In this document: one piece after another, positions 39,395 to 62,077 of the stretch
Layout of the letters: each line of letters starts with the position of its first letter
How positions within the stretch are numbered: position 1 is the stretch's first letter
Assembly: GCA_007693505.1 (NCBI GenBank)
Contig: REDL01000082.1
Coordinates: forward strand, 62,001-126,000
Length of the DNA stretch: 64,000 nucleotides
Direction: 5' to 3'
DNA from: Desulfovibrionales bacterium
Lineage (GTDB): Bacteria > Desulfobacterota > Desulfovibrionia > Desulfovibrionales > Desulfonatronaceae
Notes under the pieces: model-generated
What the model saw: only the letters and a program-made list of their open reading frames with translations
Databases searched by the model: none
Told to the model about the DNA's origin: nothing
Translations under genes and position numbers: made by a program

Positions 39395-40411
39395 ATGAAT
39401 ACTTGGTTGCGTTTCATTGGACTGAGGATGTTTATGGCGGTGTTTCTGGCGGCAATGATCTCGTTGCCCTCCGTCGGCATGGCCCAGGAATGCGAGCATC
39501 GGGGCATGCTGGACCCGAGGTTCTGCGACGAGGATCGGGATCTGGTGGCGGATCCGCCCAAGGATGCAAGCCGCTTCAGGGATCCCAGCACGCTGATCTT
39601 CACCTATACTCCGGTGGAAGATCCGGCGGTCTACCGGGATTTGTTCCAGCCCTTCATGGAGTATCTGGAGGAGGCCACGGGCAAACGGGTCACCTACTAC
39701 ACGGTGCACTCCAATGCGGCCCAGATTGAGGCCATGCGTTCCGGACGGCTGCACGTCGGCGGCTTTTCCACTGGCCCCACCGGCTTTGCCGTGAATCTGG
39801 CCGGAGCCGTTCCCTTCACCGTCAAGGGATTTCCCGACGGCCTGCAGGGCTACAACTTGATCCTGCTGGTCCGGGCCGACAGCCCCTTTCAGCAGCCTTC
39901 GGACCTGAAGGGCAAGCGCGTCGCCCATACGTCCCCGTCGTCCAACTCCGGCAACCTGGCCCCCCGGATCCTGCTGCCACCACACGGACTCGTTCCGGAA
40001 GAAGATTACGAAGTCCTCTTTTCCGGAAAGCATGACCAGTCGGTCATGGGCGTGCTGACCGGCGATTACGATGCCGCTCCGGTGGCCTCGGACGTTTTCG
40101 ACCGCATGGTCCGCCGCGGAACGGTCAATGCCGAAGACTTCCGGATTATTTACCGCAGCGATATCTTCCCCACCTCCTCCTTTGCCTATGCCCACGACCT
40201 GCACCCGGACCTGGTGCGGCGCATCGTCGGCGCATTCCATACCTACCGGTTCAACGAGGAAATGCAGAAAGCCTTTGACGGCGCGGACCGCTTCTACCCC
40301 ATCACCTACAAGAAGGACTGGGCCGTGGTTCGGCAGATCGCCGAAGGAACCGGCGTTTCCTACAGCCGTACCGGATTTGAGCAGGAATTTTCCACGCAAC
40401 TGCCGCAGTAG
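39395..40411 (+). CDS. phnD: PhnD-family phosphate/phosphite/phosphonate-binding protein (first system)
   Basis: A 338-residue periplasmic binding protein with a signal peptide (about residues 1-31, ending GMAQ). The type II binding fold shows FTYTPVEDPAVYRD, then TYYTVHSNAAQIEAMRSGRL, then GGFSTGP and AHTSPSSNSGNLAPRI. Relative to the second PhnD at 60563 it has an inserted region of about 30 residues after the signal, containing CEHRGMLDPRFCDEDRD with two Cys. Ligand could be phosphonate or phosphite. RBS GGAGGAACCACTG. First gene of a four-gene ABC operon. Confidence 0.85.
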   Translation: MNTWLRFIGLRMFMAVFLAAMISLPSVGMAQECEHRGMLDPRFCDEDRDLVADPPKDASRFRDPSTLIFTYTPVEDPAVYRDLFQPFMEYLEEATGKRVTYYTVHSNAAQIEAMRSGRLHVGGFSTGPTGFAVNLAGAVPFTVKGFPDGLQGYNLILLVRADSPFQQPSDLKGKRVAHTSPSSNSGNLAPRILLPPHGLVPEEDYEVLFSGKHDQSVMGVLTGDYDAAPVASDVFDRMVRRGTVNAEDFRIIYRSDIFPTSSFAYAHDLHPDLVRRIVGAFHTYRFNEEMQKAFDGADRFYPITYKKDWAVVRQIAEGTGVSYSRTGFEQEFSTQLPQ

Positions 40412-40417
40412 GCGGGT

Positions 40418-41278
40418 ATGACCACGCAATCCTCATCCGCTACGGATGAACCGCGAACCACTCCGGAGGACAGGGTGGCTCAGGCCGCCCCGTCCTCCGG
40501 GACCACCCTGGAAATCCGGAACCTTGTCAAAGCCTACACGCCCGGCAAGCCGGTCCTGAACAGCCTGAACCTCTCCCTGAACGGCAGTGGCCTGACCGCG
40601 ATCATCGGCCCGTCAGGCACGGGAAAAAGTACGCTGATTCGCTGCATCAACCGGCTGGTGGAACCCACATCCGGAGAGATCCGTTTTCAGGGACAGGACC
40701 TGGTCCGACTACGGGGCAAAGCCCTGCGCCAGGCCCGACGTCGGATCGGGATGGTCTTTCAGGAATACAACCTGGTGGAGCGACTCACGGTTCTGGAGAA
40801 CGTGCTTTGCGGCCGGCTGGGCTATGTTTCGGCATGGCGGGCCTGGCTGCGCCGATTTTCCCGAACAGACATCGACGCGGCCTTCAACCTGCTGGAGCAT
40901 GTCGGCCTAAGCGATTTTGCCCTGCAACGGGCCGATGCCCTGTCCGGGGGGCAACGCCAGCGAGTGGGCATTGCCCGGGCCGTGATGCAGAATCCCGGTC
41001 TGCTTCTGGCTGATGAGCCGACATCATCACTGGATCCCAAGACATCCGTGGAGATCATGGAACTGATGGCCGAACTGGGCCGAAGGCAATCCATCCCGAT
41101 CATCGTGAACATCCACAATGTAGCCCTGGCATCACGGTTTGCCGAGCGGATCATCGGGCTCTCCCAAGGCCACATCATCTTTGACGGACCGCCTCAGGCG
41201 ATCACGGACGAGATCCTCAAGCAGATCTACGGCGGTCAGGAATGGCTCCCCCAGACATCCTCCCCCAAAGCCTCCTGA
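40418..41278 (+). CDS. phnC: PhnC-type ABC transporter ATP-binding protein
   Basis: A 286-residue ABC ATPase. Walker [10 protein letters not shown], signature [13 protein letters not shown], Walker [15 protein letters not shown] and switch His (NIHN) are intact. A charged N-terminal extension of about 30 residues precedes the ABC domain. It powers the phosphonate/phosphite importer with PhnD and two permeases. It starts 6 bp after phnD and the stop is 33 bp before phnE1. Confidence 0.92.
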
Positions 41279-41311
41279 GAAGCCGCAAAACCTCTCCGCA
41301 CCAAATTCGTC

Positions 41312-42097
41312 ATGACCAACGCCTCGCCCCATGCAAATCCTTTCCGCGCTGGATGGCCCTCCCGGATTGGATGGACCCTCCTGGCCGTATACACCCTTTA
41401 TGCCCTGTCCATCCTGGATTTCAGCTGGCCCCGGTTTATCGCGGGTCTGGAAAACGGTGCCGTATTTCTGGGACGGATGTGGCCGCCTGATTTTACGCGG
41501 TGGAAGATCATGGTCGAGGATCTGATCGAAAGCCTGCAGATCGCCGTGCTGGCTTCGGCCATTGGGGTGACCCTCTCCTTGCCCATCGGTTTTTTGGCGG
41601 CGCGCAACCTGATGCCGCCCATGGTGACCTGGCCGGTACGCGGCTTCATCGTCCTGTGCCGCTCCTTCCATCCGGTGATCATGGCCATTTTGTTCGTCAA
41701 GGCCATCGGCTTCGGTGCCGCGGCCGGCATCGCCGCGCTGGTAGTCTTTTCCATCGGCTTTATCGCCAAGCTGTTCGCCGAAGCAGTGGAGGAAATATCC
41801 CTGAAACAGGTGGAGGCCGTGCGCGCCACCGGGGCCTCATTCATGAACGTGATCATCTTCGCAGTCATGCCCCAGGTATTCAGCCGATTTCTGAATTTCA
41901 GCACCTACCAGATGGAGGTCAATCTGCGGAATTCCACCATGGTCGGAATTGTCGGGGCCGGTGGCATCGGCGGCACCCTGTTCGCCGCGTTTCAGCGCTT
42001 TGACTATGATTTTGTCGCGGCCATCCTCCTGACCATCATCGCGTTGATCATGGTCGGCGAATTTCTTACGGATCGGGTGAGGGCGATCTTCCAATGA
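41312..42097 (+). CDS. phnE: PhnE-type ABC permease, first subunit
   Basis: A 261-residue membrane protein with about six helices and the coupling EAA-like loop EAVRATGASFMNVI near residue 165. The family segment STMVGIVGAGGIGGTLF is intact. It is one of two separate permeases here, in contrast to the fused double permease of the second system at 58133. Stop overlaps the next ATG by 4 bp. Confidence 0.9.
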   Translation: MTNASPHANPFRAGWPSRIGWTLLAVYTLYALSILDFSWPRFIAGLENGAVFLGRMWPPDFTRWKIMVEDLIESLQIAVLASAIGVTLSLPIGFLAARNLMPPMVTWPVRGFIVLCRSFHPVIMAILFVKAIGFGAAAGIAALVVFSIGFIAKLFAEAVEEISLKQVEAVRATGASFMNVIIFAVMPQVFSRFLNFSTYQMEVNLRNSTMVGIVGAGGIGGTLFAAFQRFDYDFVAAILLTIIALIMVGEFLTDRVRAIFQ

Positions 42098-42891
42098 CCG
42101 CCCCAGCCCATGAATGGCATCGATTCAGTCGAGGGCACCGCTTCCTGCGGTTCGTGGTCTACCTGGTCTCCGTGACTGTGGTGGTCTTCTCGCTGCGCAC
42201 CGTGGAGATCATTCCGGAATTTCTCCTGGACGCCCCGCAACAGATGGCCGACATGCTCTCCAGGATGTGGCCGATGGACACCGGCCACTATGCCAAGGGC
42301 GTCCACCAGTCTCTGATTGAAACCATCCACGTCGCCACCCTGGGAACCATTGGCACGGTCTTTCTGGCCGTGCCCACGGCGCTGCTGGCCTCAAACCGGA
42401 TCATGCCCTGGCGGGTGGTGAACACCCTGGCCAGATTGATCCTGGTCTCCTCGCGTTCCGTAAATACCCTGGTATGGGCGCTGCTGTTCGTTGCCGTGTT
42501 TGGCCCGGGAGCCGTCGCCGGAACCATGGCCATTGCCTTTCGTTCCATCGGCTTCGTGGGCAAGCTGCTCTCCGAGGCCCTCGAGGAGACTTCCGCCGGT
42601 CCGGTGGAGGCCCTGCGGGCCACCGGGGCTTCCTGGCTCAGCGTGTTCACCAAAGGGTACTGGCCGCAAGTCCAGCCAGCCTTCTGGTCGATCATCCTCT
42701 TTCGCTGGGACATCAATGTCCGCGAATCTGCTGTTCTCGGGCTGGTAGGGGCCGGCGGCATCGGCATGGCCCTGGATACGGCCATGAACCTGTTCTACTG
42801 GGACCGTGTGTCTCTCATCCTGCTCTCCATCTTTGTCGTGGTCATCCTGGTGGAAATTTTGGTCACGAACATCCGCAAGCGCATTATCTGA
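42094..42891 (+). CDS. phnE: PhnE-type ABC permease, second subunit
   Basis: A 265-residue membrane protein like its neighbour, with EALRATGASWLSVFTKG and ESAVLGLVGAGGIGMALD. It pairs with the preceding permease to form the heterodimeric channel. ATG overlaps the phnE1 stop (ATGA). The operon is D-C-E-E; no metabolic gene follows it directly. Confidence 0.9.
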   Translation: MTAPAHEWHRFSRGHRFLRFVVYLVSVTVVVFSLRTVEIIPEFLLDAPQQMADMLSRMWPMDTGHYAKGVHQSLIETIHVATLGTIGTVFLAVPTALLASNRIMPWRVVNTLARLILVSSRSVNTLVWALLFVAVFGPGAVAGTMAIAFRSIGFVGKLLSEALEETSAGPVEALRATGASWLSVFTKGYWPQVQPAFWSIILFRWDINVRESAVLGLVGAGGIGMALDTAMNLFYWDRVSLILLSIFVVVILVEILVTNIRKRII

Positions 42892-43030
42892 TTTAAAATC
42901 TGTTTGTATCCGCAGATACCCCGCTACATGGAACGTGTGGGCGATGACAATGAATTGTCGCCCACGTGACATGCGCTCGTCACACGCTCCTGCTAACGTG
43001 ACTCGAAAATTCAACCAGGAGGGAAAGCGC

Positions 43031-43402
43031 ATGACCCACGATCAACTGTTTGTTTTTCGGAACTTGCTGCACGGCCTGATGGATCAGATCCGGAACAAGG
43101 ACAAAGCGACGGCCGAGGCCATCAGCGAAGTCTATCAAGCCTGCCCGGACCTGAACGACCGGGCCACCCTGGAAGCGGAGCGCAACATGCTGATCCTGCT
43201 CGGCCAGCGTGAGCGCAGCCTGTTGCAGCAGATCCGTCAAGCCCTGACCCGCATCGACGACGGATCCTACGGGATCTGCCAGGAATGCGGCGAGACTATC
43301 CCCTTCAAACGCCTGGAATTTCACCCCACCTCTTCCCTCTGCGTCCATTGCCAGCAAGATCTGGAACAGGCAGCCGCCTTGAACGCGATGTCCTGCGCCT
43401 GA
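43031..43402 (+). CDS. DksA/TraR-family zinc-finger transcription factor
   Basis: A 123-residue protein with N-terminal coiled coil and a C4 zinc finger CQEC with CVHC (around residues 84-109). DksA-like proteins bind RNA polymerase through the secondary channel and alter the response to ppGpp. The coiled-coil tip lacks an obvious pair of Asp residues, so action may differ from DksA. RBS AGGAGGG. It stands alone after the phn transporter and before a hairpin. Confidence 0.85.
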   Translation: MTHDQLFVFRNLLHGLMDQIRNKDKATAEAISEVYQACPDLNDRATLEAERNMLILLGQRERSLLQQIRQALTRIDDGSYGICQECGETIPFKRLEFHPTSSLCVHCQQDLEQAAALNAMSCA

Positions 43403-43542: not shown

Positions 43543-45438
43543 TCATCCCGTCATCGCAGACAGACAGTTCCCACGTGAACCATCCCTCCCATTAACCGAC
43601 TCCCCTTTGCCATCCCGGTGATAGGACAGAAAAACCTCTGCACCCTCCTTGCCCAGATATCGCTCCAGGGTCCGACGGTCGGTTTGGAGCAGGTCCACCA
43701 GGACCAAGCCGTCCAGGACATTGCTGAATTCCCGGTCCACGTTGAAGCCGAGCATCTTGCCCCCCAGTTTCAGGTACTGCCGCAGCAGCACCGGAACCCC
43801 GGACTTGTGGCGGTCGATGTCCGTGATAATCTCGGAAATGTCGTCAATGGTCTTGGACATCATGGTCAGCAACGAATCGTCCAGGCGAAAGATCCGGCGC
43901 TGGCGAAAAGGTCGGCGGGGCCGGACATGGTCGGCCAGTTCGTGCATATGCCCGTTGGCCCGCAAAAAACCAACGATCAGTTGCCGGGAGAAGCGGTGGT
44001 ACTCGTTGTCGATACTCACCGGGCCGAACAGGGTCCGGTATTCGGGATTGCGCAGAATGAATCGGGCGATGCCCTTCCAGAGCAGCAATAACGGCGCGTA
44101 ACTTTTCTGGTATTCCGGCCGGACAAAGGACCGCCCCATTTCCAGGGCAGGATCAATCTCGTTCCAGAAGCGGGACTGGAACGCAAAGAGTGTGTTCGTA
44201 TACAACCCCTTGGGGCCATGCTTCTTCAGGATCTCATCCGTGCGACCCAGTCTGTAGGCTCCGGCGATCCGTTTTGCCTGTTTGTCCCAGAGAAACAGGT
44301 GCAGGTAGTGGGCATCGAAAATATCCAGGTCAACCTCCTTGCCCGTGCCTTCCCCGGCATCCCGGAACGTAACTTCCCGCAATCTACCGATTTCGTGAAG
44401 TAAATTGGGGATATCCAATGCCTGGGCAAGGTGGACACAGAAGTCCTCAGTCTCCAGCAGCAGCTGTTCCGCGGACAGGGTTTGCTGTTCACGCTGCAAT
44501 GAGTTTTGGACCGGTGGCAATAGAGCGGTGATCCCATCCGGCCCGTTGGGCAAAGAGGGATGTATCTGCTTTGGCCGCTGCTTGCCCCCACAGTTCAAAA
44601 GATATGTGCGGTGTCGCAGATACGCGATCATCTCGGCATCCGTGGAGCAGTTGGCCAAATGCTTCGGCCCGAGAGGGCGTCCGATCCGCACTCGGACTTC
44701 CGATCCGGCCTTGCGCACCAGGGCATGGGGGAGCAGCATGGTCCTCAGGCGGGGATGAATTAATCCGGCCAGGTGGAACATGGGGCCGTTGGTACCTTGG
44801 AAGAACATCGGCACCGCCGTGGCCCCGGTCTTGCGAATGATCCTGGCCATGGACTCGCTCCAGGGAGGGTCGCCCATGGTCCGCCGCCGAACTTGCAAAT
44901 GAGAGACTTCGCCGGCTGGAAACACGCCCAATACGCCCTCCGACCGCAACCAGCCCAGGATCTTCCGTAAGGCCGATGCGTTTCGCTGTATCGTGGACGC
45001 TCCTCCCTCAAAGGGGTCAACAAACAGAAACAGATCCTGCAGCTCGTGCACCCTTCTGAGCAGATGATTGGCCATGATCTTCACATCCGGCCGCCGCCTG
45101 CGCAGCACAGCGGCCATGATCAACCCCTCAAGTGCTCCGAAAGGGTGATTGGCCACCACGACCACCGGTCCCTTTGGTGGAATGCGCTCCAGCTCGCGCT
45201 CATCCAGGACAATGCCCACATGCAACACGCGAAGAGCCCGCTCCAAGAAATCCTCTTGCGGACGGCTTTCCCGGGCATGGTCCTGCCCGTCCACGATCTC
45301 AGCGTATTTTCGATTCAAATACCGCAAGGCCAGCATCTTCTCCAGAGAAGGCTTGACCAATCCGAACAACCTATTCGGCAGCGGACGCATGAAGGGAGAC
45401 GGCAGGTCGATCAGGCAGTGCTGGGAAGTGGCGCTCAT
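43543..45438 (-). CDS. olsF: Bifunctional ornithine-lipid synthase-like protein (OlsF family)
   Basis: A 631-residue fusion. The N-terminal half (about 60-290) is a PlsC-like O-acyltransferase with an acyltransferase core VVVANHPFGALEGL (His98) and a later FPAGEVSH block. The C-terminal half (about 330-600) is a GNAT-like N-acyltransferase related to OlsB (REVTFRDAGEGTGKEVDLD and later VRPEYQKSYAPLLLLW). OlsF proteins convert ornithine to the phosphorus-free ornithine lipid. RBS GGAGGATG precedes the ATG at 45438. It diverges from the PHP-glycosyltransferase across a 228-bp region with Pho-box repeats. Substrate amino acid is inferred. Confidence 0.8.
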   Translation of the reverse strand: MSATSQHCLIDLPSPFMRPLPNRLFGLVKPSLEKMLALRYLNRKYAEIVDGQDHARESRPQEDFLERALRVLHVGIVLDERELERIPPKGPVVVVANHPFGALEGLIMAAVLRRRRPDVKIMANHLLRRVHELQDLFLFVDPFEGGASTIQRNASALRKILGWLRSEGVLGVFPAGEVSHLQVRRRTMGDPPWSESMARIIRKTGATAVPMFFQGTNGPMFHLAGLIHPRLRTMLLPHALVRKAGSEVRVRIGRPLGPKHLANCSTDAEMIAYLRHRTYLLNCGGKQRPKQIHPSLPNGPDGITALLPPVQNSLQREQQTLSAEQLLLETEDFCVHLAQALDIPNLLHEIGRLREVTFRDAGEGTGKEVDLDIFDAHYLHLFLWDKQAKRIAGAYRLGRTDEILKKHGPKGLYTNTLFAFQSRFWNEIDPALEMGRSFVRPEYQKSYAPLLLLWKGIARFILRNPEYRTLFGPVSIDNEYHRFSRQLIVGFLRANGHMHELADHVRPRRPFRQRRIFRLDDSLLTMMSKTIDDISEIITDIDRHKSGVPVLLRQYLKLGGKMLGFNVDREFSNVLDGLVLVDLLQTDRRTLERYLGKEGAEVFLSYHRDGKGESVNGRDGSRGNCLSAMTG

Positions 45439-45527
45439 CGCAAGACATCCTCCGGCTGGAAAGGTTCAGGACAGCAGGACAACCACATGCCCTGTACACC
45501 AATCCAGACCAAAAGCATCACCGAAAG

Positions 45528-45545
45528 GTTACCGTCAGGTGAAGA
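45528..45545 (-). promoter_or_regulatory. Weak Pho-box-like pair facing olsF
   Basis: Reading on the minus strand, TCTTCAC and CGGTAAC occur 11 bp apart (45545-45539 and 45534-45528), the Pho-box spacing, about 90 bp upstream of olsF. Matches to the CTGTCAT consensus are partial. Confidence 0.3.
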
Positions 45546-45562
45546 TTTGACGACAGCTTGGA

Positions 45563-45640
45563 ATGTCACCCAATTTTCACAGACCTGTCATTATTGGTCA
45601 CCTGCTGATCATCATCCCGTCATGTTTTCCGGTTACCTAT
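45563..45640 (+). promoter_or_regulatory. Pho-box array and -10 region upstream of the PHP-glycosyltransferase
   Basis: Six 7-bp units occur in direct orientation: ATGTCAC (45563), TTTTCAC (45574), CTGTCAT (45585), TGGTCAC (45595), TGATCAT (45606), CCGTCAT (45617). Five intervals are 11,11,10,11,11 bp. This is the tandem organisation of PhoB-binding Pho boxes. Ten bases after the last unit a -10-like TACCTAT lies at 45634-45640, the geometry of PhoB-dependent promoters. The gene starts 27 bp further on. Confidence 0.72.
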
Positions 45641-45666
45641 TTCCGAACAGAATACGGGAGGTGATT

Positions 45667-48117
45667 ATGGAACTGACGACCAAGGCTGATTTGCACGTTC
45701 ACTCCAAGTACTCCAAGCGACCATCACAATGGGTTCTGCAGAAAATTGGCTGCTCGGAAAGCTACACCGAGCCGCTGCACATCTACCAGACCCTGCGAGA
45801 CAAGGGCATGGACCTGATCACCATCACGGACCACAACACCATTGAAGGCAGTCTGGAAATCGCTCATCTGCCGGATACCTTTATCAGTGAGGAAATCACC
45901 GCCTACTTTCCCCATGACCGTTGCAAGGTGCATGTCCTGGCCTACAACATCACCGAAGACCAACACCGGGAAATCCAGAAGTACCGGGACAATGTTTTCG
46001 AACTGGCCGAATACCTGAACCAGGCAGATATACTCCACGCTCTGGCCCATCCGCTATTTTCGGTCAACGACAAGCTGACCACGGCCCACTTCGAACAACT
46101 GTTGCTTCTGTTCAAAATCTTCGAGATCAACGGCGCACGTGACGAGCATCTGAACACGAATTTACAACAAATCCTGGCTACGCTCACACCCGCGGACATC
46201 CGGCGACTGGAGAACATCCACGACCGGGCGGCCCTGATCAAGGAACCCTGGATCAAGCACCTCACCGGGGGCTCGGACGACCACAGTTCCCTGAACATCG
46301 CCCGGACGCACACGGTAATGACCGGAAAGCATGACCTGTCCGGCTTTCTCCAAGGCATCCGAGAAGGCCAGTCGTCCTTTGTCGGCAGGTCATCCTCACC
46401 CCAGACCCTGGCCCATAACCTCTACAGCATTGCCTACCAGTTCTATAAACAAAAATTTCAGCTCGGAAAGCACGTCAACAAGGACATCCTGCTCAAATTC
46501 GTCGATCGAAATCTGGACCCAGGCCATGAGGACGAAACCGGCCTGCTGGGTTCGCTGCACGCTCTCTGGTCACAACGGCTTCGTCCGAGAATCGGCGGCA
46601 CATCCTGGCGTAATCCCCCGGAACAGCTTCAGGATCTGCTGCGTCACGAGACTGCCAAGCTGATTTGGAATGATCCCAAGCTGATGGACATCGTTCGTTC
46701 CGGTGACAGCAGCCAGGAAGGTCAGGACAAGGCCTGGTTTGCGTTTGTGAACCGTTCGGCCAACAAGGTTCTGAAGCATTCCGCTGATCACATGCTCCGC
46801 AAAATCTCCCAGGGCAGCATCTTCGACATCTTCCACTCCCTGGGTTCCGCGGGTGCATTGTACACCTTGTTGATGCCCTATTTCCTGTCCTATTCGCTCT
46901 TTGCCCACGATCGCAAATTCAGTGGAGACGTCCGGAAGGCGTTTGCCGCAACCAAGAACCTGCCTTTGACAGATGCCGACTCCGGACCACGGGTGGCTCA
47001 CTTCACGGACACCTTCTACGAAGTCAACGGCGTGGCCCTGACCCTCCAGCAACAACTGTCCATGGCCCGCTCTTCCAGCAAGAACATGACCATCATCACC
47101 TGCGCCCCTGATGAAGCGGCTCCCTCAGCGGACGGGGTTCGCAACTTCGCCCCCATCGGCGTGTTCGAGTTGCCGGAATACCCGGAACTGAAGCTTTTCT
47201 ATCCACCGCTGCTGGAAATGATGCACTTCTGTTTCGAAAACCAAATCAATCACATCCACACAGCTACTCCGGGCCCCATCGGCCTTGCCGCCTTGGCCCT
47301 GGCCAAGCTGATGCACTTGCCCATTTATGGCACCTATCACACCTCACTACCGCAATACACCCAGTACCTGACCCAGGACTCGGCCATGGAGGAACTGATG
47401 TGGCGGTTCACCCTGTGGTACTACGACCAGATGGACTTGGTCTTTGCTCCGTCCCATGCCACAGCCAACGAACTGATCGCCAAAGGCCTTCGACCGGACA
47501 AGGTACAGGTCTATCCCCGGGGTATTGATATCGACCGGTTTCATCCCTCCAAACGCAATGGATTCTATTCCAAGCGCCACCAACTCCGGAATGAAATCAA
47601 GCTGCTCTACGTTGGACGGGTTTCCAAGGAAAAGAACCTGCACATCCTGGAGGAAGCCTACCGGCGCCTCCAGGTTGAGGGCCGTGACGTGCGTCTGATC
47701 GTTGTCGGTGACGGGCCGTACCGGGAACAAATGGAGCACAATCTCAGCGGCACCCAGACAATATTTACCGGCTATCTGGACGGTGACGCCCTGGCCGAGG
47801 CCTATGCCTCGGCGGATATCTTCGTCTTCCCCAGCACCACGGACACCTTCGGCAATGTGGTCCTGGAGGCCCTGGCTTCCGGCCTGCCGGTGATCGTCTC
47901 CGCCGAGGGCGGTCCCCAGGAAAATGTTATCCCCCACCAAACCGGCATCATCGTCCCCGCCTCCACGCCGGAAGCCTACCATGCCGCCATAGCCGACCTT
48001 CTGGACGATCCATCCCTGCTGAAAACCATGAGCAACCAAGCCAGAAATTCCATGGAAAGCCGCTCCTTCGGAGCCTCTTTCGACCAGGTTTGGTCTTATT
48101 ATGGGCAGACGGGCTAA
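45667..48117 (+). CDS. PHP phosphoesterase-glycosyltransferase (GT4) fusion protein
   Basis: An 816-residue protein. Residues 1 to about 230 form a PHP domain with the metal motifs intact: DLHVHS, TDHNTI, EEITAY, ALAHPLF and GGSDDHSS. Residues 240-430 are helical and unassigned. Residues about 430-816 are a GT4/GT-B glycosyltransferase (VAHFTDTFYEVNGVALTL, then YPRGIDIDRFHP, YVGRVSKEKNL and the nucleotide-sugar EALASGLPVIVS). No signal peptide. RBS GGGAGGTGA at ideal spacing. It diverges from olsF and sits behind a strong Pho-box array. A role in making a phosphorus-free glycolipid is inferred; the acceptor is unknown. Confidence 0.85.
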   Translation: MELTTKADLHVHSKYSKRPSQWVLQKIGCSESYTEPLHIYQTLRDKGMDLITITDHNTIEGSLEIAHLPDTFISEEITAYFPHDRCKVHVLAYNITEDQHREIQKYRDNVFELAEYLNQADILHALAHPLFSVNDKLTTAHFEQLLLLFKIFEINGARDEHLNTNLQQILATLTPADIRRLENIHDRAALIKEPWIKHLTGGSDDHSSLNIARTHTVMTGKHDLSGFLQGIREGQSSFVGRSSSPQTLAHNLYSIAYQFYKQKFQLGKHVNKDILLKFVDRNLDPGHEDETGLLGSLHALWSQRLRPRIGGTSWRNPPEQLQDLLRHETAKLIWNDPKLMDIVRSGDSSQEGQDKAWFAFVNRSANKVLKHSADHMLRKISQGSIFDIFHSLGSAGALYTLLMPYFLSYSLFAHDRKFSGDVRKAFAATKNLPLTDADSGPRVAHFTDTFYEVNGVALTLQQQLSMARSSSKNMTIITCAPDEAAPSADGVRNFAPIGVFELPEYPELKLFYPPLLEMMHFCFENQINHIHTATPGPIGLAALALAKLMHLPIYGTYHTSLPQYTQYLTQDSAMEELMWRFTLWYYDQMDLVFAPSHATANELIAKGLRPDKVQVYPRGIDIDRFHPSKRNGFYSKRHQLRNEIKLLYVGRVSKEKNLHILEEAYRRLQVEGRDVRLIVVGDGPYREQMEHNLSGTQTIFTGYLDGDALAEAYASADIFVFPSTTDTFGNVVLEALASGLPVIVSAEGGPQENVIPHQTGIIVPASTPEAYHAAIADLLDDPSLLKTMSNQARNSMESRSFGASFDQVWSYYGQTG

Positions 48118-49511: not shown

Positions 49512-50363
49512 TTACCAGCGCATTACCAGCAGACCGAGACAGATCACCATTGCCCCGAGCAGGCGCAGCACCCAGTGTTGCCGTTCTCGCAGAATGAAGA
49601 TGGAAACCAGGCTGGCCAGGACGATCCCGGCATTGGTGTAGGCCACGGCTTCCGCCGAGGGCATGAAGCGCATGGCATGGATGACGAGCACGTAAGCCGT
49701 CCCGACGCTCAGACCCCCGAAAAGCAACGTGACCGGACTGATGCACTGCCGGGGAATTACCCGGCCGGTTTTCCGATACAAGTCCAAGCTGATGCCCACC
49801 CATGCCGCGGTATAGCCGAAGGTAATGAAGCCCAGCAGGCCCGCGAAACTGGTGATTGATGCCGTTGCGGCCTTGTCACTCAGGGAATAGATGCTCGTGG
49901 CGAACATGGCCAGAAGCATCCAGGGCAGAGCAGCGCTATCCCGACAGTTTCGCGCGCTGGTGGCCATGACCAGCAATCCGAGCACGCTGGTCACGATCCC
50001 TGTCCAGGTCAGCACCCCGAATGCCTCGCCAAGGAACAGTGAACTCCAGACGGCGATGAAGAGTGGCGAACTCCGGACAACCGGATAGACCAGGGCCACC
50101 GGAGCATGCTCATAGGCCCGACGCAGACCAAGGAAATAGACCATGTTCGCCGTGGCCGAGGTTGCCAACAGGGCGACGAAGGCGGATGTCCAGGCGACCT
50201 CTGACAGCAGTGCGGACACACCCAAGGGCCCGAGCAGGAGAATGTGCGCAAGCAGAATCCACCAGAGAGCGCAGGCCTCCTGGGGCTGTGTGCGGACCAT
50301 CAGGTTCCAGATCACGTGCAGCAATACCGATCCGGCCAGGGCCAGCCCCGCTTCAGGAAGCAT
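49512..50363 (-). CDS. EamA/DMT-family permease
   Basis: A 283-residue protein with ten predicted membrane segments, typical of EamA transporters (two five-helix repeats). It follows phnN by 66 bp on the same strand and so may be the last gene of the C-P lyase operon. It could export or import a phosphonate breakdown product; substrate unknown. A duplicated fragment of its 3' end lies at 48218-48327. Confidence 0.85.
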   Translation of the reverse strand: MLPEAGLALAGSVLLHVIWNLMVRTQPQEACALWWILLAHILLLGPLGVSALLSEVAWTSAFVALLATSATANMVYFLGLRRAYEHAPVALVYPVVRSSPLFIAVWSSLFLGEAFGVLTWTGIVTSVLGLLVMATSARNCRDSAALPWMLLAMFATSIYSLSDKAATASITSFAGLLGFITFGYTAAWVGISLDLYRKTGRVIPRQCISPVTLLFGGLSVGTAYVLVIHAMRFMPSAEAVAYTNAGIVLASLVSIFILRERQHWVLRLLGAMVICLGLLVMRW

Positions 50364-50429
50364 TTCGCCGGGCAGTTGTGAAGCTGTACTTGAGCAGAAG
50401 AAGAGGAACCATTTCGGTCCGACGGAAAG

Positions 50430-51005
50430 TCATCCGCTTCCCGGAGGGGAATCGATTTCCCGCAAGATGGCCGCCACGAGCTGCTCACCAGCCTCCGCAA
50501 CCAGGCCGTCATTGGAGAGGACCACAGCACCTTCCACGAAGCCGACTGAAAATCGGATATCGCGTTCCAGGCGCTCCTGAATCTGCTCGGCGTTTTCCCG
50601 GCCACGGGCCATTAGCCTGGTTCGGATGGTATCCTCACCGGCGGCGATCCAGATCAGCCGCAAGTCGGGATGGCTCTTGTGCGCCTGAGGAAGATAGGCT
50701 CTTGAGCCATTGACCACCACGCTTATCCCCTTGGCCAGCCAACAGTCGATCTCAATTCCGACTCCGTAGGCTGTCCCGTGGGAATGCCAGCTCATCGCGA
50801 ACAGGCCGGTGCGGTGGCGCATCTCGAACTCCCCGCCCGTCAAGGCGATATGATTCTCGCCACCGGCATCCGCGGGGCGGGTGATATACCTGTGCGCAAA
50901 GGCGATCCGGCCGGCACCGTCCAGCCGCTGCCGGGCATAATCAAGCAGGGTATCCTTGCCGGAACCCGAGGGGCCGACAACATAGATCAGCTGGCCGCTA
51001 ACCAT
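50430..51005 (-). CDS. phnN: Ribose 1,5-bisphosphate phosphokinase
   Basis: A 191-residue guanylate-kinase-fold enzyme with P-loop GPSGSGKD near the N-terminus. PhnN phosphorylates ribose 1,5-bisphosphate to PRPP, ending the C-P lyase route. The start at 51005 overlaps the end of phnM and gives the same N-terminus as E. coli PhnN (MVSGQLIYVVGPSGSGKD). An ATG at 51029 is possible. Confidence 0.9.
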   Translation of the reverse strand: MVSGQLIYVVGPSGSGKDTLLDYARQRLDGAGRIAFAHRYITRPADAGGENHIALTGGEFEMRHRTGLFAMSWHSHGTAYGVGIEIDCWLAKGISVVVNGSRAYLPQAHKSHPDLRLIWIAAGEDTIRTRLMARGRENAEQIQERLERDIRFSVGFVEGAVVLSNDGLVAEAGEQLVAAILREIDSPPGSG

Positions 51006-52158
51006 GACAAAACGACGCCGTGAACACACAGCGCCCTTCGCTCCAGACCCGTTCCACCAGGGGTTGTCCTCCGACCTCCCGTACCGCGATCAGATCGGCG
51101 CGCTGGTTCGCGGCTAAGATTCCCCGATCATGAAGTCCCGCGGCAACGGCTGGATGCCGCGTGACGAGCTTCACAGCCTCATGCAGAGGCATTTCAGCCT
51201 GTTCCCGAAGCTTGAAAACGGCTGCAAGCAGGGCCCCAGGCGCATAATCCGCGCAGAGAACATCCGCGACGCCCTCCAGGACCGCGTCCAAGGCGCGCAT
51301 GCATCCGGAATGGGAGCAGCCGCGCAAAATGTTCGGGGCGCCGAACAGGGTCCGCAGCCCTTGAGCCTTGGCTGCCCGGGCAGTGTCGATGTTCACGGGA
51401 AACTCGGAAATCGTGGCCCCCAGGCTCTGCATCAGCTCGATCTTTTCCGGATTGTCGTCGTCATGGCTGGCCAGAGCAACATTATGCTTGCGGGCATCCT
51501 CGGCCAGGCCGCGAATCCGTGCCAAAGCACCTTTGGCATTGACCAGCTTGGACTCCAGTAAATCGTCCAGTTCCTGCTCGGACTGCTTGTAGGTCTTGGC
51601 CAAAAAACGGCGATAGGCCTCAACGTCCCGGTAACTGCCCTGTCCCGGCGTATGATCCATGAACGACAAGAGATCCAGCTCATTTCGCTCCATCATCTCC
51701 AGAAGCAGTTCCGGAGCCTCGGTGTCCGTGACCTCGTAACGGGCATGGGTCAGGTTATCCACGAGCGCGCACCGGTTCCACTCATGCACGGCCCGGAGCA
51801 CCTGTGCCGCCACCGTGTTGTTGCGCACGCCGAGTTCCGCCTGGGCAAAGGACAGGGAGTGAAAGACCGTGGTGATTCCGGCCGCGGCGTTGCGCTTGTC
51901 GGCCTGGGCGCAAGCGTGGTCCAGGGGGAAGTAGACGTTGGGCCGCGGTTCCACGTCTTTCTCCAGCGCATCGCAGTGCAGATCGACCATGCCGGGCATC
52001 AACACCCGCCCTTCAAGGTCGATTTCACGAGCCCCGTTGCCCGAAAGGGGTTCCACGGCACTGATGAACCCGTCCTCCACCAGAATTGCCCCGTCAGCAA
52101 GAGTTTCCTGGTCCAAAACCAGTTGGGCCCGGGTAATATAAAAGCTGTTTTTCGGCAT
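50998..52158 (-). CDS. phnM: Alpha-D-ribose 1-methylphosphonate 5-triphosphate diphosphatase
   Basis: A 386-residue amidohydrolase-family enzyme. VDLHCDALEKD supplies metal ligands; ALASHDDDNPEK and the DVLCADYAPGALL segments are typical for PhnM. It removes pyrophosphate from the ribosyl triphosphate made by PhnGHIL. The start at 52158 follows GGAG at 6 bp spacing; an ATG at 52170 has none. It overlaps phnN by 8 bp and is separated from phnL by about 130 bp. Confidence 0.93.
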   Translation of the reverse strand: MPKNSFYITRAQLVLDQETLADGAILVEDGFISAVEPLSGNGAREIDLEGRVLMPGMVDLHCDALEKDVEPRPNVYFPLDHACAQADKRNAAAGITTVFHSLSFAQAELGVRNNTVAAQVLRAVHEWNRCALVDNLTHARYEVTDTEAPELLLEMMERNELDLLSFMDHTPGQGSYRDVEAYRRFLAKTYKQSEQELDDLLESKLVNAKGALARIRGLAEDARKHNVALASHDDDNPEKIELMQSLGATISEFPVNIDTARAAKAQGLRTLFGAPNILRGCSHSGCMRALDAVLEGVADVLCADYAPGALLAAVFKLREQAEMPLHEAVKLVTRHPAVAAGLHDRGILAANQRADLIAVREVGGQPLVERVWSEGRCVFTASFCHG

Positions 52159-52222
52159 GAAATGCTCCATTTTCTCGATATCAAATCAGAAATGAGGGCC
52201 CCGCCGGAGGCTCAGAGTTAGC

Positions 52223-52240
52223 GGTATTGCACACAATACC
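52223..52240. other. Intercistronic hairpin between phnL and phnM
   Basis: GGTATTG at 52223-52229 pairs with CAATACC at 52234-52240 (4-base loop). It lies in the only sizeable gap of the phn operon and may mark an mRNA processing site. Confidence 0.4.
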
Positions 52241-52291
52241 GGCTATCCGGTGCGTCGCACCGAACACCGAGCACATCGCAGGACGAAAAAA

Positions 52292-53035
52292 TCAGCACAC
52301 GCAGTCCGGACTTCTCTCCTTCCCCGGAGCATCCGCTTGTCCCGGCATCGTGAAAATCCGGTCGGCCACGGCACTTCGGACCTGCTCATCGTGAAAAATG
52401 CCCACCACCGCGGTTCCCGTGGCCTTGGCCTCCAGGATCATCCGGATCACTACGTCCCGATTTTCTGCATCCAGGGAGGCCGTGGGCTCATCCAAAAGCA
52501 AAACCGGACATTCCCGGGCAAAGCCCCTGGCGATATTCACCCGTTGCTGTTCCCCTCCGGAAAAGGTCTTGGGGGCCAACGACCACAGGTGGGGTCCAAT
52601 ATTCAACCGAGACAGAATTGCTTGGGCTGTTTGACGGGCCAAGTCCCTGCTCCGCCCGTTGAACTGGGCCGCCTCGGTGACGATATCCACGGCACTGACA
52701 CGGGGAATGACACGGAGAAACTGGCTGACATAGGCAATGGTTCCGCGACGGACGTGTTGGATCCATCGCGGTGGTGCCGAAGCCAGGTCGATATATGCAT
52801 TTTCGTGCAACACGAAGATACTGCCCATGTCCGGCTTGTAATTGCCGTACAGGGAACGCAGCAGAGAGGACTTGCCGGTGCCGCTGGCCCCGGCCAGGGC
52901 CAAGCATTCCCCGGCGGCAACCTGCAGATCCAGATCCTGGAACACATTGATCCGCACTCCACCCTGGTGATGCAGGACAAAGGACTTGCCCAGCCCCTGA
53001 ACACGAATTCGCAGCAATGCCATAGTTGTGGTCAT
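52292..53035 (-). CDS. phnL: C-P lyase ABC-type subunit PhnL
   Basis: A 247-residue ABC ATPase-like protein with GASGTGKSS, FSGGEQQRVNIARG and LLLDEPTASLDAENR. PhnL acts with PhnGHI in forming ribose 1-phosphonate 5-triphosphate; it is not a transporter. Its ATG overlaps the phnK stop by 1 bp. Confidence 0.93.
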   Translation of the reverse strand: MTTTMALLRIRVQGLGKSFVLHHQGGVRINVFQDLDLQVAAGECLALAGASGTGKSSLLRSLYGNYKPDMGSIFVLHENAYIDLASAPPRWIQHVRRGTIAYVSQFLRVIPRVSAVDIVTEAAQFNGRSRDLARQTAQAILSRLNIGPHLWSLAPKTFSGGEQQRVNIARGFARECPVLLLDEPTASLDAENRDVVIRMILEAKATGTAVVGIFHDEQVRSAVADRIFTMPGQADAPGKERSPDCVC

Positions 53036-53922
53036 TACGCCTCCAGAATCGACGCAACCAGCAGTTGCGTATACGGGTGGTGAGGATCATCCAGAACCTG
53101 GTCCGTCAACCCGCTCTCCACAACCCGTCCGCACTGCATCACCAGCAGCCGGTCCGCCAGGAGTCGGGCCACGCCCAGGTCGTGGGTCACCAGGATCACG
53201 GCCAGATGCAGCTCGGAACACAGCGAGCGCAACAGGTCCAGCAGACGAGCCTGCACCGAGACGTCCAGACCGCCGGTGGGCTCGTCCATGAACATCAACC
53301 TGGGCTTGGTCACCAGATTCCGGGCGATCTGCAGGCGCTGCTGCATGCCCCCGGAAAAGTGCAGGGGGAGGTCGTCGATCCGATCGCCATTAATTTCGAC
53401 CTTGCGCATCCAGGTCAGGGCCTCATCCCGGATAGCCCCGTAGTTGCGCTGCCCCAGGCTCATCAGCCGCTCCCCAATGTTCGCCCCGGCACTGACGCCC
53501 AGACGCAATCCGTCCCGAGGATTTTGGTGCACCAGCCCCCACTCCGTGCGGTGCAGCTGGCGCAGGACATGCTCGGGGGAGGTAAAGACATCCATCTCGC
53601 CAAACGTCGGCGAACAATAGCTGGTGCGGCCATTGTCGGCACGGATTCCCGCGCTCAGACAGCGCAATAAAGTGGTTTTTCCGGAGCCGGACTCTCCAAC
53701 AATGGCCAGGACCTCCCCGGGCCAGAGCATAAAGGAAATGTCCCGGCAGGCCGGTGTTCCATTAAAGGATTTGCCCACATCCTCGACAATCAGCAACGGA
53801 TTGTCATCCACGCCCGGAGAGCATGGCTTGCTTGATGCCGTTTTCCGCTCCGTCTCTGCGTCCGGATCTGATTGTTCCGGCACGACTGGATATGGCGCTT
53901 CCTTGTTGATCAACTGGCTCAC
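53035..53922 (-). CDS. phnK: C-P lyase ABC-type subunit PhnK
   Basis: A 295-residue protein. After an unusual N-terminal extension of about 50 residues (rich in Pro, Ser, Glu) the ABC domain shows GESGSGKTT, a Q-loop VHQNPRD, LHFSGGMQQRLQIAR and MFMDEPTGGLD. It binds the PhnGHIJ core. The GTG start at 53922 is preceded by GGAGGTGAAGGC and overlaps the phnJ stop. The extension is longer than in E. coli PhnK. Confidence 0.92.
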   Translation of the reverse strand: MSQLINKEAPYPVVPEQSDPDAETERKTASSKPCSPGVDDNPLLIVEDVGKSFNGTPACRDISFMLWPGEVLAIVGESGSGKTTLLRCLSAGIRADNGRTSYCSPTFGEMDVFTSPEHVLRQLHRTEWGLVHQNPRDGLRLGVSAGANIGERLMSLGQRNYGAIRDEALTWMRKVEINGDRIDDLPLHFSGGMQQRLQIARNLVTKPRLMFMDEPTGGLDVSVQARLLDLLRSLCSELHLAVILVTHDLGVARLLADRLLVMQCGRVVESGLTDQVLDDPHHPYTQLLVASILEA

Positions 53923-54842
53923 GCCTTCACCTCCCGTGTTTCCCGGCCATTCTCCGGGACAACCGCGGTTGGTCCGGAGTCTTCGGTCTCCCGACGGGAG
54001 CGGCAATAATCGCTGTCCGAGCAGACGAACATCCGCTTGCCGCGGTCATCGAGAATGATCTCGTCCAGATAGCTGTTCCGGGAGCCGCACAGACCGCAAC
54101 TTTCCACCCACCTTTGGATTGCAAAGGGATGGTCCTCGAAATCCAGGCTTCTGACCTCTGTGTAGGGCGGGATGGCATAGACCCGGCGCTCCCGTCCGGC
54201 TCCGAAGATCTGCAGGGCCGGGCAGTCGTCCATTTTCGGGTTGTCGAACTTGGGAATAGGCGAGGGGCTCATCACGTACCGGCCCGCCACGCGCACTGGA
54301 TAATCGAAGCTGGTCACGATCCGGCCGTGGCGGGCGATGTCCTCATAAAGCTTGACGTGCATCACGCCGTACTCCTCCTGGGCATGCATCTTCCGGGATT
54401 CCGTTTCCCGGGGCTCCAGCCAGCGCAAGGGCTCGGGCAGAGGGACCTGATAGACGAGAATCTGGTCTTCCCGGAGCGGCGTCTCCGGGATGCGATGCCG
54501 GGTCTGGATGATGGTGGCCTCTGCAGTGCGTTCCGTGGTCCGCACCCCGGCTGTCCGCTGGAAGAACTTGCGGATGGATACCGCGTTGGTCGTATCGTCG
54601 GCCCCCTGATCAATGACCTTGAGCACATCGTCCCGGCCCAACAGGGCCGCGGTCAACTGGATGCCTCCCGTACCCCAGCCAAAGGGCATGGGCATCTCCC
54701 GGCCAGCAAAGGGGACCTGGTATCCCGGGATGGCCACGGCCTTGAGGATTGCCCGGCGGACCATCCGCTTGGTCTGCTCGTCCAGGTAGGCGAAATTATA
54801 GCCGTCGCCGGAATGCCGTGTCGTCTTGTCCGTGCCGCTCAT
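53919..54842 (-). CDS. phnJ: Carbon-phosphorus lyase, radical SAM subunit
   Basis: A 307-residue protein, the catalytic subunit that cleaves the C-P bond. The cysteine set C249-x2-C252, C274 and C280 matches the cluster and radical cysteines of PhnJ, and a glycyl-radical-site region AIPGYQVPFAG (Gly40) is present. The start at 54842 overlaps the phnI stop (ATGA); a long upstream frame is rejected. Methylphosphonate or similar would give methane and the 1,2-cyclic phosphate. Confidence 0.95.
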   Translation of the reverse strand: MSGTDKTTRHSGDGYNFAYLDEQTKRMVRRAILKAVAIPGYQVPFAGREMPMPFGWGTGGIQLTAALLGRDDVLKVIDQGADDTTNAVSIRKFFQRTAGVRTTERTAEATIIQTRHRIPETPLREDQILVYQVPLPEPLRWLEPRETESRKMHAQEEYGVMHVKLYEDIARHGRIVTSFDYPVRVAGRYVMSPSPIPKFDNPKMDDCPALQIFGAGRERRVYAIPPYTEVRSLDFEDHPFAIQRWVESCGLCGSRNSYLDEIILDDRGKRMFVCSDSDYCRSRRETEDSGPTAVVPENGRETREVKA

Positions 54843-56071
54843 AATGACCCTTCCTCCCCGTCGTCCTGCCCCTTTGCCGCATGAGCGGCCCGCAACCGCC
54901 GGACGATTTCCAGTTCCGCCTGGAAGTCCACGTAATGCGGCAGCTTGAGATGCTGCACAAAGCCCGAGGCCTCCACGTTGTCGCCATGGCTGAGGACGAA
55001 CTCCTGGTCCTGGGCCGGGCCCTTGACGTCCTCGCCGAACTCGTCGTGCCGCAGGGCCCGGTCCACCAGGGCCATGGACATTGCCTTGCGCTCGCAATTG
55101 CCGAAGGCCAGGCCATATCCCTGGGAGAAATGGGCCGGACGATGGGTATCGCCGGAATATTTCCCGAGCATCTGACATTCCGTGAGCAGAATTTCGCCTA
55201 TGCACACTGCAAACCCCAGCTCTTCGGGCACAATCTCAACCTCAACTCGTCCCACACGGATTTCACCGGCAAAAGGATGCATCGAGCCATAGCCGCGTTG
55301 GGTCGAGTAGCCCAGAGCCAGGACAAACCCCTCGTCTGCCCGAGCCAGGCTTTGCAATCGCTGATCCCGAGTCGCCGGAAAGGTCAGCGGGTCCCTGGTG
55401 ATATCCTTGGGTGCGCCGTCATGACCCTGTTGTTCTTCAATCAGGCCCTCGCCGCGCAGGAGTTCGGCAATCGAAGGCATTTCCTTGCTTCCAGGCTCCC
55501 CGAGTGGAAGTGTATCCGCTGTCCGCGAGTCTTGCGGAGCCAGACCCGTCACCATTGGCGACGACCCTTCGGCATCCAAGTTGTCATCCGGTGCCTGCTC
55601 AGCTTCCTGTCCGGGCGCCTGCCCAAGAGGCTCTTTGGACGCCTGCGCAGGAGCCTGTTCAGGGCAGTCCAGCAGCTGGAAATCAAGCAAGCGGTGCGTA
55701 TAGTCGAACGTCGGCCCAAGTAACTGCCCGCCGGGCAACTCCTTGAAGCAGCTGGAAATTCGGCGTTGGACACGCATCTTTCCGGTTTCCACCGGTGTGC
55801 TCACTCCAAAGCGCGGCAGGGTCGTCCGATAGGCCCGCACCAGAAATATTGCTTCCACCAGGTCGCCCTGGGCCTGCTTGACCGCCAAGGCAGCCAGATC
55901 GGGGTCATACAAGGAACCTTCACTCGTCACGCGATCCACGGCCAAGCTCAATTGCTCGCGAATCTGCTTTACACTGATTTCCGGGATATCCGGACTGCCA
56001 CGACGTGCCGCATCCAGAAGTTGGTGGGCATTTTCAATGGCTTTCTCCCCGCCCTTGACCGCTACGTACAC
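54839..56071 (-). CDS. phnI: C-P lyase core subunit PhnI, with long acidic insertion
   Basis: A 410-residue protein; E. coli PhnI has about 354. The extra length lies roughly between residues 135 and 200, in a Gln/Ala/Pro/Glu-rich stretch (EQAPAQASKEPLGQAPGQEA and following). The flanking regions (YVAVKGGEKAIENAHQLL; FSQGYGLAFGNCERKAMSMA) are well conserved. PhnI has nucleosidase activity on ATP/GTP in the complex. GTG start at 56071 with RBS GGGAGG; it overlaps phnH by 10 bp. Confidence 0.92.
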   Translation of the reverse strand: MYVAVKGGEKAIENAHQLLDAARRGSPDIPEISVKQIREQLSLAVDRVTSEGSLYDPDLAALAVKQAQGDLVEAIFLVRAYRTTLPRFGVSTPVETGKMRVQRRISSCFKELPGGQLLGPTFDYTHRLLDFQLLDCPEQAPAQASKEPLGQAPGQEAEQAPDDNLDAEGSSPMVTGLAPQDSRTADTLPLGEPGSKEMPSIAELLRGEGLIEEQQGHDGAPKDITRDPLTFPATRDQRLQSLARADEGFVLALGYSTQRGYGSMHPFAGEIRVGRVEVEIVPEELGFAVCIGEILLTECQMLGKYSGDTHRPAHFSQGYGLAFGNCERKAMSMALVDRALRHDEFGEDVKGPAQDQEFVLSHGDNVEASGFVQHLKLPHYVDFQAELEIVRRLRAAHAAKGQDDGEEGSL

Positions 56072-56679
56072 AAGACCTCCCTCACCATGACGGATCGTGG
56101 CAAACAGACCATTTCTCCGTCGCCGACAAAAATGAAATCCACACCCTGGGGAAACATGGCGCTGTTTGCTGCCACGTATTTCCAGAACCCCGGGAGCGTG
56201 CCCGCAACCCGGATTACCGCCTGATCTCTGACCCCGGGCCCCTGAATCATCGATCCATTACCCGTTTCCAGGGACTCCGCGACAACCACGATCGTTGCGG
56301 AACGGTCCGGATACTCAGGAAGCCCCGGATTAAATTTCCCCAACATTTCCGGATTTATATCCGCATGAACCAGCCCGAATACCGCCTCACTCGGCTGCTC
56401 CACGACCGGACATCCGCAATGAAAGGTCAGAAACTCCCTGAGCACCGCCTTACGGTGATCGTCGCTGAGCCAGATCGGCGTATCAAAATCAGCCAGGGAG
56501 AGCAGAACCGACAGGGCCGCATCAGGAAAACCATGAAAAACCTCAGGTTGAACAGGAACCGACAAACGTTTTCCCGGTCGGGACATGGCCTCAAGCAGCA
56601 CCCGAAACGTGGCCTGGGCATCGTGCACCGGAGAGGAAAAGCCCGCGGGAATACCGCCGGGCCCGGCCAAATTATTCAT
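56062..56679 (-). CDS. phnH: C-P lyase core subunit PhnH
   Basis: A 205-residue protein with PhnH hallmarks: FSSPVHDAQATFRVLLEAMSRPGK near the N-terminus and MFPQGVDFIFVGDGEMVCLPR near the C-terminus. PhnH is required for nucleotide transfer to the phosphonate. Start at 56679 overlaps phnG by 8 bp. It overlaps phnI at its 3' end. Confidence 0.93.
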   Translation of the reverse strand: MNNLAGPGGIPAGFSSPVHDAQATFRVLLEAMSRPGKRLSVPVQPEVFHGFPDAALSVLLSLADFDTPIWLSDDHRKAVLREFLTFHCGCPVVEQPSEAVFGLVHADINPEMLGKFNPGLPEYPDRSATIVVVAESLETGNGSMIQGPGVRDQAVIRVAGTLPGFWKYVAANSAMFPQGVDFIFVGDGEMVCLPRSVMVREVLCT

Positions 56680-57121
56680 GACCGTCCTCACCTCGTACCA
56701 GGGTAAAAAAATCCACCGCTGTGGTCCGCGTGGCCGTGTCCTGCTCCACCCGCCTCGTACGCAACTTGCTTTCCAGGGGGGCAATCAGCTTGGTCTCCAG
56801 TTCCGGTCCGGTCTTCTCGTCCTGAAGCATGGCATCGAAATAGGCCGCGAGTTCGGCATGCTCCCGTGATCTTCCTGCCACGAATCCATATCCCACCAGC
56901 CCCGTCACCGTGCGCACCACACAGCGGGATACCGTCATCTCCCCAAGATTGAAGGCCGCACCATCCCCGCTGATCCGTCCCCGGATCATGACCAGCCCGA
57001 CCTCCGGAGCCCGCAAAAAAGAATACTCGGGACCGGGAAATTGCCCGGCAAAGTGCCGCAAATCATCTCGATCGCTCAGTGCCAATGTGCGCATCCACAC
57101 CTTGCGCTTTTCGTTATCCAT
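56672..57121 (-). CDS. phnG: C-P lyase core subunit PhnG
   Basis: A 149-residue PhnG protein (RAPEVGLVMIRGRISGDGA, NLGEMTVSRCVVR, GYGFVAGRSREHAE). First gene of the operon phnGHIJKLMN and presumably EamA; the coding order matches the core of the E. coli locus. Start at 57121; divergently arranged with phnF with a 105-bp gap. Confidence 0.94.
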   Translation of the reverse strand: MDNEKRKVWMRTLALSDRDDLRHFAGQFPGPEYSFLRAPEVGLVMIRGRISGDGAAFNLGEMTVSRCVVRTVTGLVGYGFVAGRSREHAELAAYFDAMLQDEKTGPELETKLIAPLESKLRTRRVEQDTATRTTAVDFFTLVRGEDGHE

Positions 57122-59677: not shown

Positions 59678-59693
59678 GTTCTCCTCAAAAATG

Positions 59694-59733
59694 GCTTCGC
59701 CCTTCCCGCCGCGGGACGGACAAAGGGCGAAGC
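59694..59733 (-). other. Intercistronic stem-loop between phnC and phnE
   Basis: GCTTCGCCCTT at 59694-59704 pairs with AAGGGCGAAGC at 59723-59733 (18-base loop). It lies 33 bp after the phnC stop and 16 bp upstream of phnE on the minus strand. There is no T-run; it may set the relative yield of phnD/phnC and phnE by mRNA stability. Confidence 0.6.
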
Positions 59734-59766
59734 GATGAGGTTCGAAGAAGTGGATATTTTCTGGTT

Positions 59767-60552: not shown

Positions 60553-60562
60553 GGTCGTTCTC

Positions 60563-61892: not shown

Positions 61893-61932
61893 AGTTCACC
61901 GTAGTTTCATGAAAATGTAACGCTCCTGTCAT
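61893..61932 (+). promoter_or_regulatory. Pho-box array upstream of SorC regulator-phoH
   Basis: Four direct units are perfectly spaced at 11 bp: AGTTCAC (61893), GTTTCAT (61904), ATGTAAC (61915), CTGTCAT (61926), each followed by a 4-bp spacer. The last matches the CTGTCAT Pho-box consensus exactly. No strong -10 follows at 10 bp (GATTTT at 61943-61948). The downstream genes start at 62078. Confidence 0.65.
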
Positions 61933-62077
61933 ACTCTTCGCCGATTTTCGCGATAGTTGTTCCTGAAGTGTGAAATACTGTCATGGACAAGGAACATTAC
62001 TTCAACCAGGTTCAACAACTTAGCGATCATATTGGCCATTGCCATGATGTTGAGTCACGAAGATCAGGTTAGATTTG

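Follow-up and report, generated by a model that had tools for sequence, protein, structure and literature searches.

The window analyzed here, a 64-kb stretch of a Desulfovibrionales genome, encodes an 816-residue protein in which a PHP phosphoesterase domain is joined through a helical linker to a GT4 glycosyltransferase domain. The gene is divergent from one for an OlsF-like acyltransferase and has the following features and neighbors:

39395–42891, + strand: phosphonate uptake genes phnD, phnC, phnE and phnE (family matches)
43543–45438, − strand: divergent OlsF-like bifunctional acyltransferase (NF052615, E 3.5e-119, below cut-off; PF13444 and PF19576)
45563–45595, + strand: predicted Pho-box array of three 11-bp-spaced repeats, score 22.1 of 24.6 (repeat scoring; position conserved at −103 to −105 within the genus)
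45595–45627, + strand: weaker adjoining repeat array, score 19.1 (repeat scoring)
45656–45663, + strand: ribosome-binding site GGGAGGTG (from the sequence)
45667–48117, + strand: PHP-GT4 fusion gene, 816 aa (full length kept in 144/348 class genomes)
45667–46395, + strand: PHP phosphoesterase domain, residues 1–243 (AlphaFold model, fold match Z up to 17.9, ligand positions invariant)
46399–46968, + strand: helical linker, residues 245–434 (AlphaFold models)
46984–48114, + strand: GT-B/GT4 glycosyltransferase domain, residues 440–816 (Pfam, structure match; H558 and D726-x7-E734 invariant)
49512–57121, − strand: phosphonate-utilization genes, comprising a phn_DUF6 membrane protein, phnN-, phnM- and phnL-like genes and phnK (TIGR02323) by family matches, and putative phnJ, I, H and G by order and sequence

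The 5′ end of the open frame (45046–48117, + strand) runs into the divergent gene, and the best start is the ATG at 45667, just downstream of the ribosome-binding site, rather than position 45439. The interval 45439–48117, to which an earlier note had assigned the gene, contains all of it, but the start must be moved since 45439–45666 is the intergenic region between the fusion gene and its neighbor. We refer to this neighbor as 'OlsF-like' because its score against NF052615 (398.9 bits, aligned over positions 49–569 of 570) is under the equivalog cut-off of 620.

The fusion was found in 36 of 59 Desulfovibrionia genera (144 of 348 genomes), and in a sample of the phylum it was recovered from 42 of 297 genomes, in more than 20 other Desulfobacterota families and mostly at full length. 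Nearly all carriers have a single copy, and the fusion is old and conserved. Most of the glycosyltransferase half is missing in G020/L092, apparently by deletion, and the copy in L051 is apparently split by a change of frame; these partial copies were left out as evidence for separate genes.

Pho-box array and gene neighborhood

The 64-kb window was scanned with a simple custom score for three 11-bp-spaced CTGTCAT-like repeats. The array at 45563–45595, situated between the fusion and the OlsF-like gene where the earlier note had placed it, is the best site in the 64 kb, with shuffled windows giving 0.00 matches at scores of 20 or above, and the second-best array (61904–61936) lies upstream of the other phnD gene. 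Upstream regions from the wider family gave p ≤ 0.05 in 15 of 55 cases as opposed to ∼3 expected, and in many others of the 55 no array was found. The form of the array agrees with that of the E. coli PhoB box, which consists of 7-bp repeats with a 4-bp spacer. Agreement with the D. vulgaris box, a 6-bp repeat with a 4-bp spacer (PMC3333781), is only approximate. These repeats point to probable control of the fusion by PhoB, which would be expected to bind at 45563–45595.

In the window the fusion is flanked by two sets of phosphonate-uptake genes and by C-P lyase genes. The second set (58133–61591, − strand), also of phosphonate type, includes a long permease (514 aa) that is apparently duplicated, and the set is accompanied by the Pho-box-like array at 61904–61936. 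Across Desulfovibrionia the fusion is found recurrently near olsF or phosphate genes: at least one phn-, pst-, phoU- or olsF-type gene is present within ∼7 kb in 19 of 41 fusion loci, and among 40 control stretches taken from these genomes 1 has such a gene (p 3e-6, for a set of genes chosen in part after the loci had been seen and for related genomes that are not independent). The fusion is near olsF in genera g1, g5, g18 and g21 and within 10 kb of it in g2 and g40, and its neighbors elsewhere include 2-aminoethylphosphonate transporter genes, pst, PhoU-type genes and phoH, as well as phn genes in Desulfatitalea (L050). Fusion and OlsF are found together in 106 of 247 genomes (125 fusion and 130 OlsF carriers; the associated p value ignores phylogeny), and 19 of the 125 fusion carriers are without a detected OlsF.

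Several other genes were seen close by. In 13 of 57 loci a gene for a radical SAM protein, possibly part of this lipid pathway, accompanies the fusion, on one side or the other and across different orders (L042, L044–L049, L051, L078, L079, L082, L091 and L094; for example L044:6686-8035). Genes for DksA/TraR-type zinc-finger proteins lie near the fusion or olsF in ∼9 loci (42806–43402 in the window; L055, L058, L075, L077, L081, L082, L088 and L091), and GAK-system genes (CofD-like, HprK-related kinase B) recur near the fusion together with a PhoU-domain gene (L060, L061, L062, L069, L081, L083 and L088). In Desulfosarcina-like genomes (L044, L045, L047, L048 and L051) the neighbors of the fusion include a gene for phosphatidylserine decarboxylase and two others.

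The glycosyltransferase half

The C-terminal half matches PF00534 (E 5e-38) and, in structure, MshA (Z 39.5). When it was compared with 72,556 plasmids the lowest E value listed, 3e-40, was that of a gene on a P. aeruginosa plasmid adjoining cerN, plcH and plcR, which from this gene order we take to be of the PA0842 (Agt2) type; a plcP-agt operon of Roseomonas was matched as well. Agt2 of P. aeruginosa makes GADG (PMC8528852). In the reverse direction, the Roseomonas Agt was used as a query against 120 class genomes, giving matches at E 1e-25 in 59, all of them fusion carriers, and in 58 of these 59 the match falls inside the fusion (coordinates compared by eye). The only other matches in Desulfovibrionia are rare separate Agt genes. 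With its GT4 fold, catalytic His and D/E-x7-E motif, and with Agt enzymes as its closest relatives, this half is likely the Agt-like enzyme of Desulfovibrionia, forming glycolipids during phosphate starvation.

One separate, single-domain Agt-like gene is found in the genome of the window itself, ∼19 kb downstream of the fusion and past the window end (L114:18308-19318), and its product is 50% identical to the Roseomonas Agt. Such genes were ruled out as the main lipid glycosyltransferase of these bacteria, being present in only 6 of 247 class genomes. P. aeruginosa Agt1 and Agt2 each yield glycolipid when expressed alone in E. coli (PMC8528852), so that a glycosyltransferase of this kind needs no fused phosphoesterase.

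Sulfate reducers can replace more than 90% of their phospholipids upon exhaustion of phosphate, and a mutant of Desulfovibrio alaskensis G20 in Dde_3613, an 'Agt homolog', is without any glycolipid (MGDG, GADG) at low phosphate (PMC5193443). Bosak et al. found homologues of Dde_3613 at E < 1e-100 in more than 50 delta-proteobacteria and handled the protein as a plain glycosyltransferase, with the PHP domain unmentioned (PMC5193443). Because the fusion is the only Agt-like family that we find to be widespread enough in Desulfovibrionia, Dde_3613 is probably a member of the PHP-GT4 family and an ortholog of the window gene, an assignment made from family spread. The sugar-lipid function is then probably known already, under the name Dde_3613/Agt.

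The PHP half and proposed function

The earlier description of an intact PHP domain joined to a GT-B glycosyltransferase proved accurate: all four motifs were located (HVHS at residues 10–13, TDHN at 54–57, AHP at 127–129 and GSDDH at 202–206) and both folds are matched by the AlphaFold model, which has a PHP fold over residues 1–243 joined by a helical linker to a GT-B fold over 440–816 (pLDDT 76 for the whole protein and 81 for residues 1–434). PF02811 (PHP) is below the cut-off for the window protein alone (E 0.18) and matches weakly in 14 of 16 relatives (best E 0.003). The PHP half gave no match among the plasmid sequences, and because a PDB sequence search with it returned nothing significant we turned to fold comparison, modeling this half separately since a structure search with the full-length model (Foldseek) was filled by matches to the glycosyltransferase half. 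Residues 1–243 have the distorted TIM-barrel fold of the PHP phosphoesterase superfamily, the solved PHP enzymes matched including 3e38 (Z 17.9, 194 aligned, 2.9 Å), 3o0f (17.0), 2anu (16.9) and RNase AM (14.6). For the long helices of the linker the structure comparison gave no trustworthy fold match; a stretch at ∼380–415 is conserved and moderately hydrophobic, with a mean hydropathy less than that of a typical transmembrane helix, and might contact the membrane.

In the established pathway PlcP supplies diacylglycerol to Agt (PMC8231724). A search for PlcP in the genome of the window gave no match, and none was found in the 125 fusion-bearing class genomes in which it was looked for. Of the 247 class genomes, 3 have PlcP; these are fusion-free, belong to one genus and carry the gene adjoining olsF. 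PlcP is also present in 5 of 237 genomes of the phylum sample, none of which is a listed fusion carrier. In one fusion-free Desulfovibrio (L112) the gene order is olsF, plcP, MGDG synthase. Given that no PF00149 gene of the PlcP type was detected, the genome of the window does not belong among those with the PlcP-Agt pathway, though the fusion may work like such a pathway. The earlier idea of a single polypeptide that carries out both steps predicts that PlcP should not be found alongside the fusion, and the results agree with it, with 0 in 125 carriers and PlcP in the place of the fusion in one lineage. Replacement of PlcP by the PHP half is the most economical reading of this distribution, which is suggestive and involves few lineages.

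Our preferred reading, to which we assign a probability of roughly 0.5, is that the fusion is a glycolipid synthase in a single polypeptide, controlled by PhoB and serving in phosphate starvation, in which the PHP half provides diacylglycerol. When phosphate is scarce PhoB would bind at 45563–45595 and turn on the fusion gene and probably also its divergent olsF-like neighbor. The PHP half would hydrolyze a phosphate ester of a glycerophospholipid, either phosphatidic acid or, in the manner of a phospholipase C, PE or PG, releasing diacylglycerol and phosphate that can be recycled, and the GT4 half would then move glucose or glucuronate from a UDP-sugar, the presumed donor, to the diacylglycerol. 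The resulting monoglycosyl- and glycuronosyl-diacylglycerols would replace phospholipids along with ornithine lipids. Computation establishes the fusion, both folds, the conserved ligands, the Pho boxes, the link to phosphate genes and olsF, the relationship to Agt and the failure to detect PlcP; we infer the kinship with Dde_3613, binding by PhoB, the sugar donor and, most of all, a lipid as substrate of the PHP half. A role for this half as the supplier of diacylglycerol is plausible; the broader claim that it acts on lipids as a phospholipase C or phosphatidate phosphatase, feeds the fused glycosyltransferase and has replaced PlcP across Desulfobacterota is put forward tentatively, at slightly under even odds. 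Of the lipid-remodeling interpretation offered in the earlier note, the predicted Pho regulation, the repeated nearness to olsF and to phosphate genes and a glycosyltransferase half that probably forms glycolipids have held up, while the lipid substrate of the PHP half stays a proposal.

The strongest rival, which we consider unlikely, also has the protein as a glycolipid synthase, with the PHP half acting on a soluble phosphate (the by-product UDP or UMP, or a sugar or nucleotide phosphate) so as to pull the glycosyltransferase reaction and recover phosphate, and with diacylglycerol coming from other enzymes. The evidence from the glycosyltransferase fits equally, and the closest solved folds are PHP enzymes that act on nucleotides or nucleic acids or are uncharacterized (3o0f, 2yb1 with AMP, RNase AM, EndoQ); known PHP enzymes have soluble phosphates, nucleic acids or phosphotyrosine as substrates, and we know of no lipid-acting member. 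However, most of these relatives are too distant (∼20% identity) for substrates to be transferred, and this explanation does not account for the failure to find PlcP in carriers, nor for its position next to olsF being confined to fusion-free genomes.

A further rival, improbable in our judgment, is that the PHP half is a structural or regulatory metal-binding module without catalysis, making the protein an Agt with an added domain. The Asp that usually serves the third metal site is absent in 55 of 55 relatives, position 17 being T, K, R, S or E there, and PHP domains can be inactive, as they are in certain DNA polymerases. On the other hand, 8 of the 9 expected metal-ligand positions are present, as assigned by motif (H10, H12, H56, E76, H89, H128, D204 and H206), and these eight and D55 are invariant in the 55 relatives (for H10 and H12 partly by construction, as both are in the pattern used to collect these sequences). 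Invariance of the other ligand positions over ∼45% identity and many families suggests, at the level of sequence, that catalysis has been kept. Finally, it is very improbable that the protein has nothing to do with lipid remodeling and serves as a glycosyltransferase for capsule, O-antigen or exopolysaccharide, and the capsule/O-antigen reading was rejected: GT4 is broad and many glycan GT4 models match weakly, but the homologues do not lie mostly in capsule or O-antigen clusters, as the earlier note had said they would if its lipid interpretation were wrong (another GT4-like gene is present in only 1 of 41 fusion loci, equal to controls), the best relatives are lipid glycosyltransferases and the context is one of Pho boxes and olsF.

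Neither a PHP-GT fusion nor a PHP domain that acts on lipids came up in a search of the literature available to us, and the fused PHP domain and the replacement of PlcP appear to be new. Nor did we find in the literature a statement of which enzyme supplies diacylglycerol in sulfate reducers. Should the PHP half do so, lipid remodeling in a major anaerobic phylum would use a different phosphoesterase, contained in one polypeptide, and would be overlooked in these bacteria by searches for PlcP; the protein would be a one-enzyme converter of phospholipid to glycolipid and its PHP half the first lipid-acting phosphoesterase of this fold known to us.

Comparison with known systems

Among characterized proteins Dde_3613, presumed to be of the same family, is needed for MGDG and GADG at low phosphate and has been described as a plain glycosyltransferase. 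The Agt of Agrobacterium, GTcp of SAR11 and Agt1 and Agt2 of P. aeruginosa are GT4 enzymes with ∼30% identity to the fusion and with the catalytic His and D-x7-E in common with it; all are Pho-controlled, as the predicted Pho-box array suggests for the fusion, and, unlike it, all are single-domain proteins (PMC8231724, PMC8528852). Agt1 and GTcp have a separate plcP gene as partner, whereas the fusion has its PHP half built in.

The PHP enzymes 3e38, 3o0f, tm0559, RNase AM, CV1693 and PsfC have the fold (Z 14–18) and most metal ligands in common with the fusion, at ∼15–21% identity to its PHP half; those chains have no glycosyltransferase partner, and the third-site Asp usual in PHP phosphoesterases is missing from the fusion. 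The role proposed for the PHP half is that of the PlcP of rhizobia, roseobacters and Pseudomonas, which converts phospholipid to diacylglycerol at phosphate starvation. PlcP, not found in fusion-bearing genomes, is a calcineurin-like metallophosphoesterase (PF00149) whose fold is unrelated to that of the PHP half. Another pairing of a phosphatase with a glycosyltransferase was seen in an Acinetobacter record (L096:3318-5192), in which a gene for a PAP2-family phosphatase comes after a related GT4 gene. The olsF-plcP-MGDG synthase cluster of the fusion-free Desulfovibrio apparently does the same job as the fusion, also next to olsF, but with three separate genes and with a PF00149 phosphoesterase where the fusion has PHP and an MGDG_synth/GT28 transferase where it has GT4.
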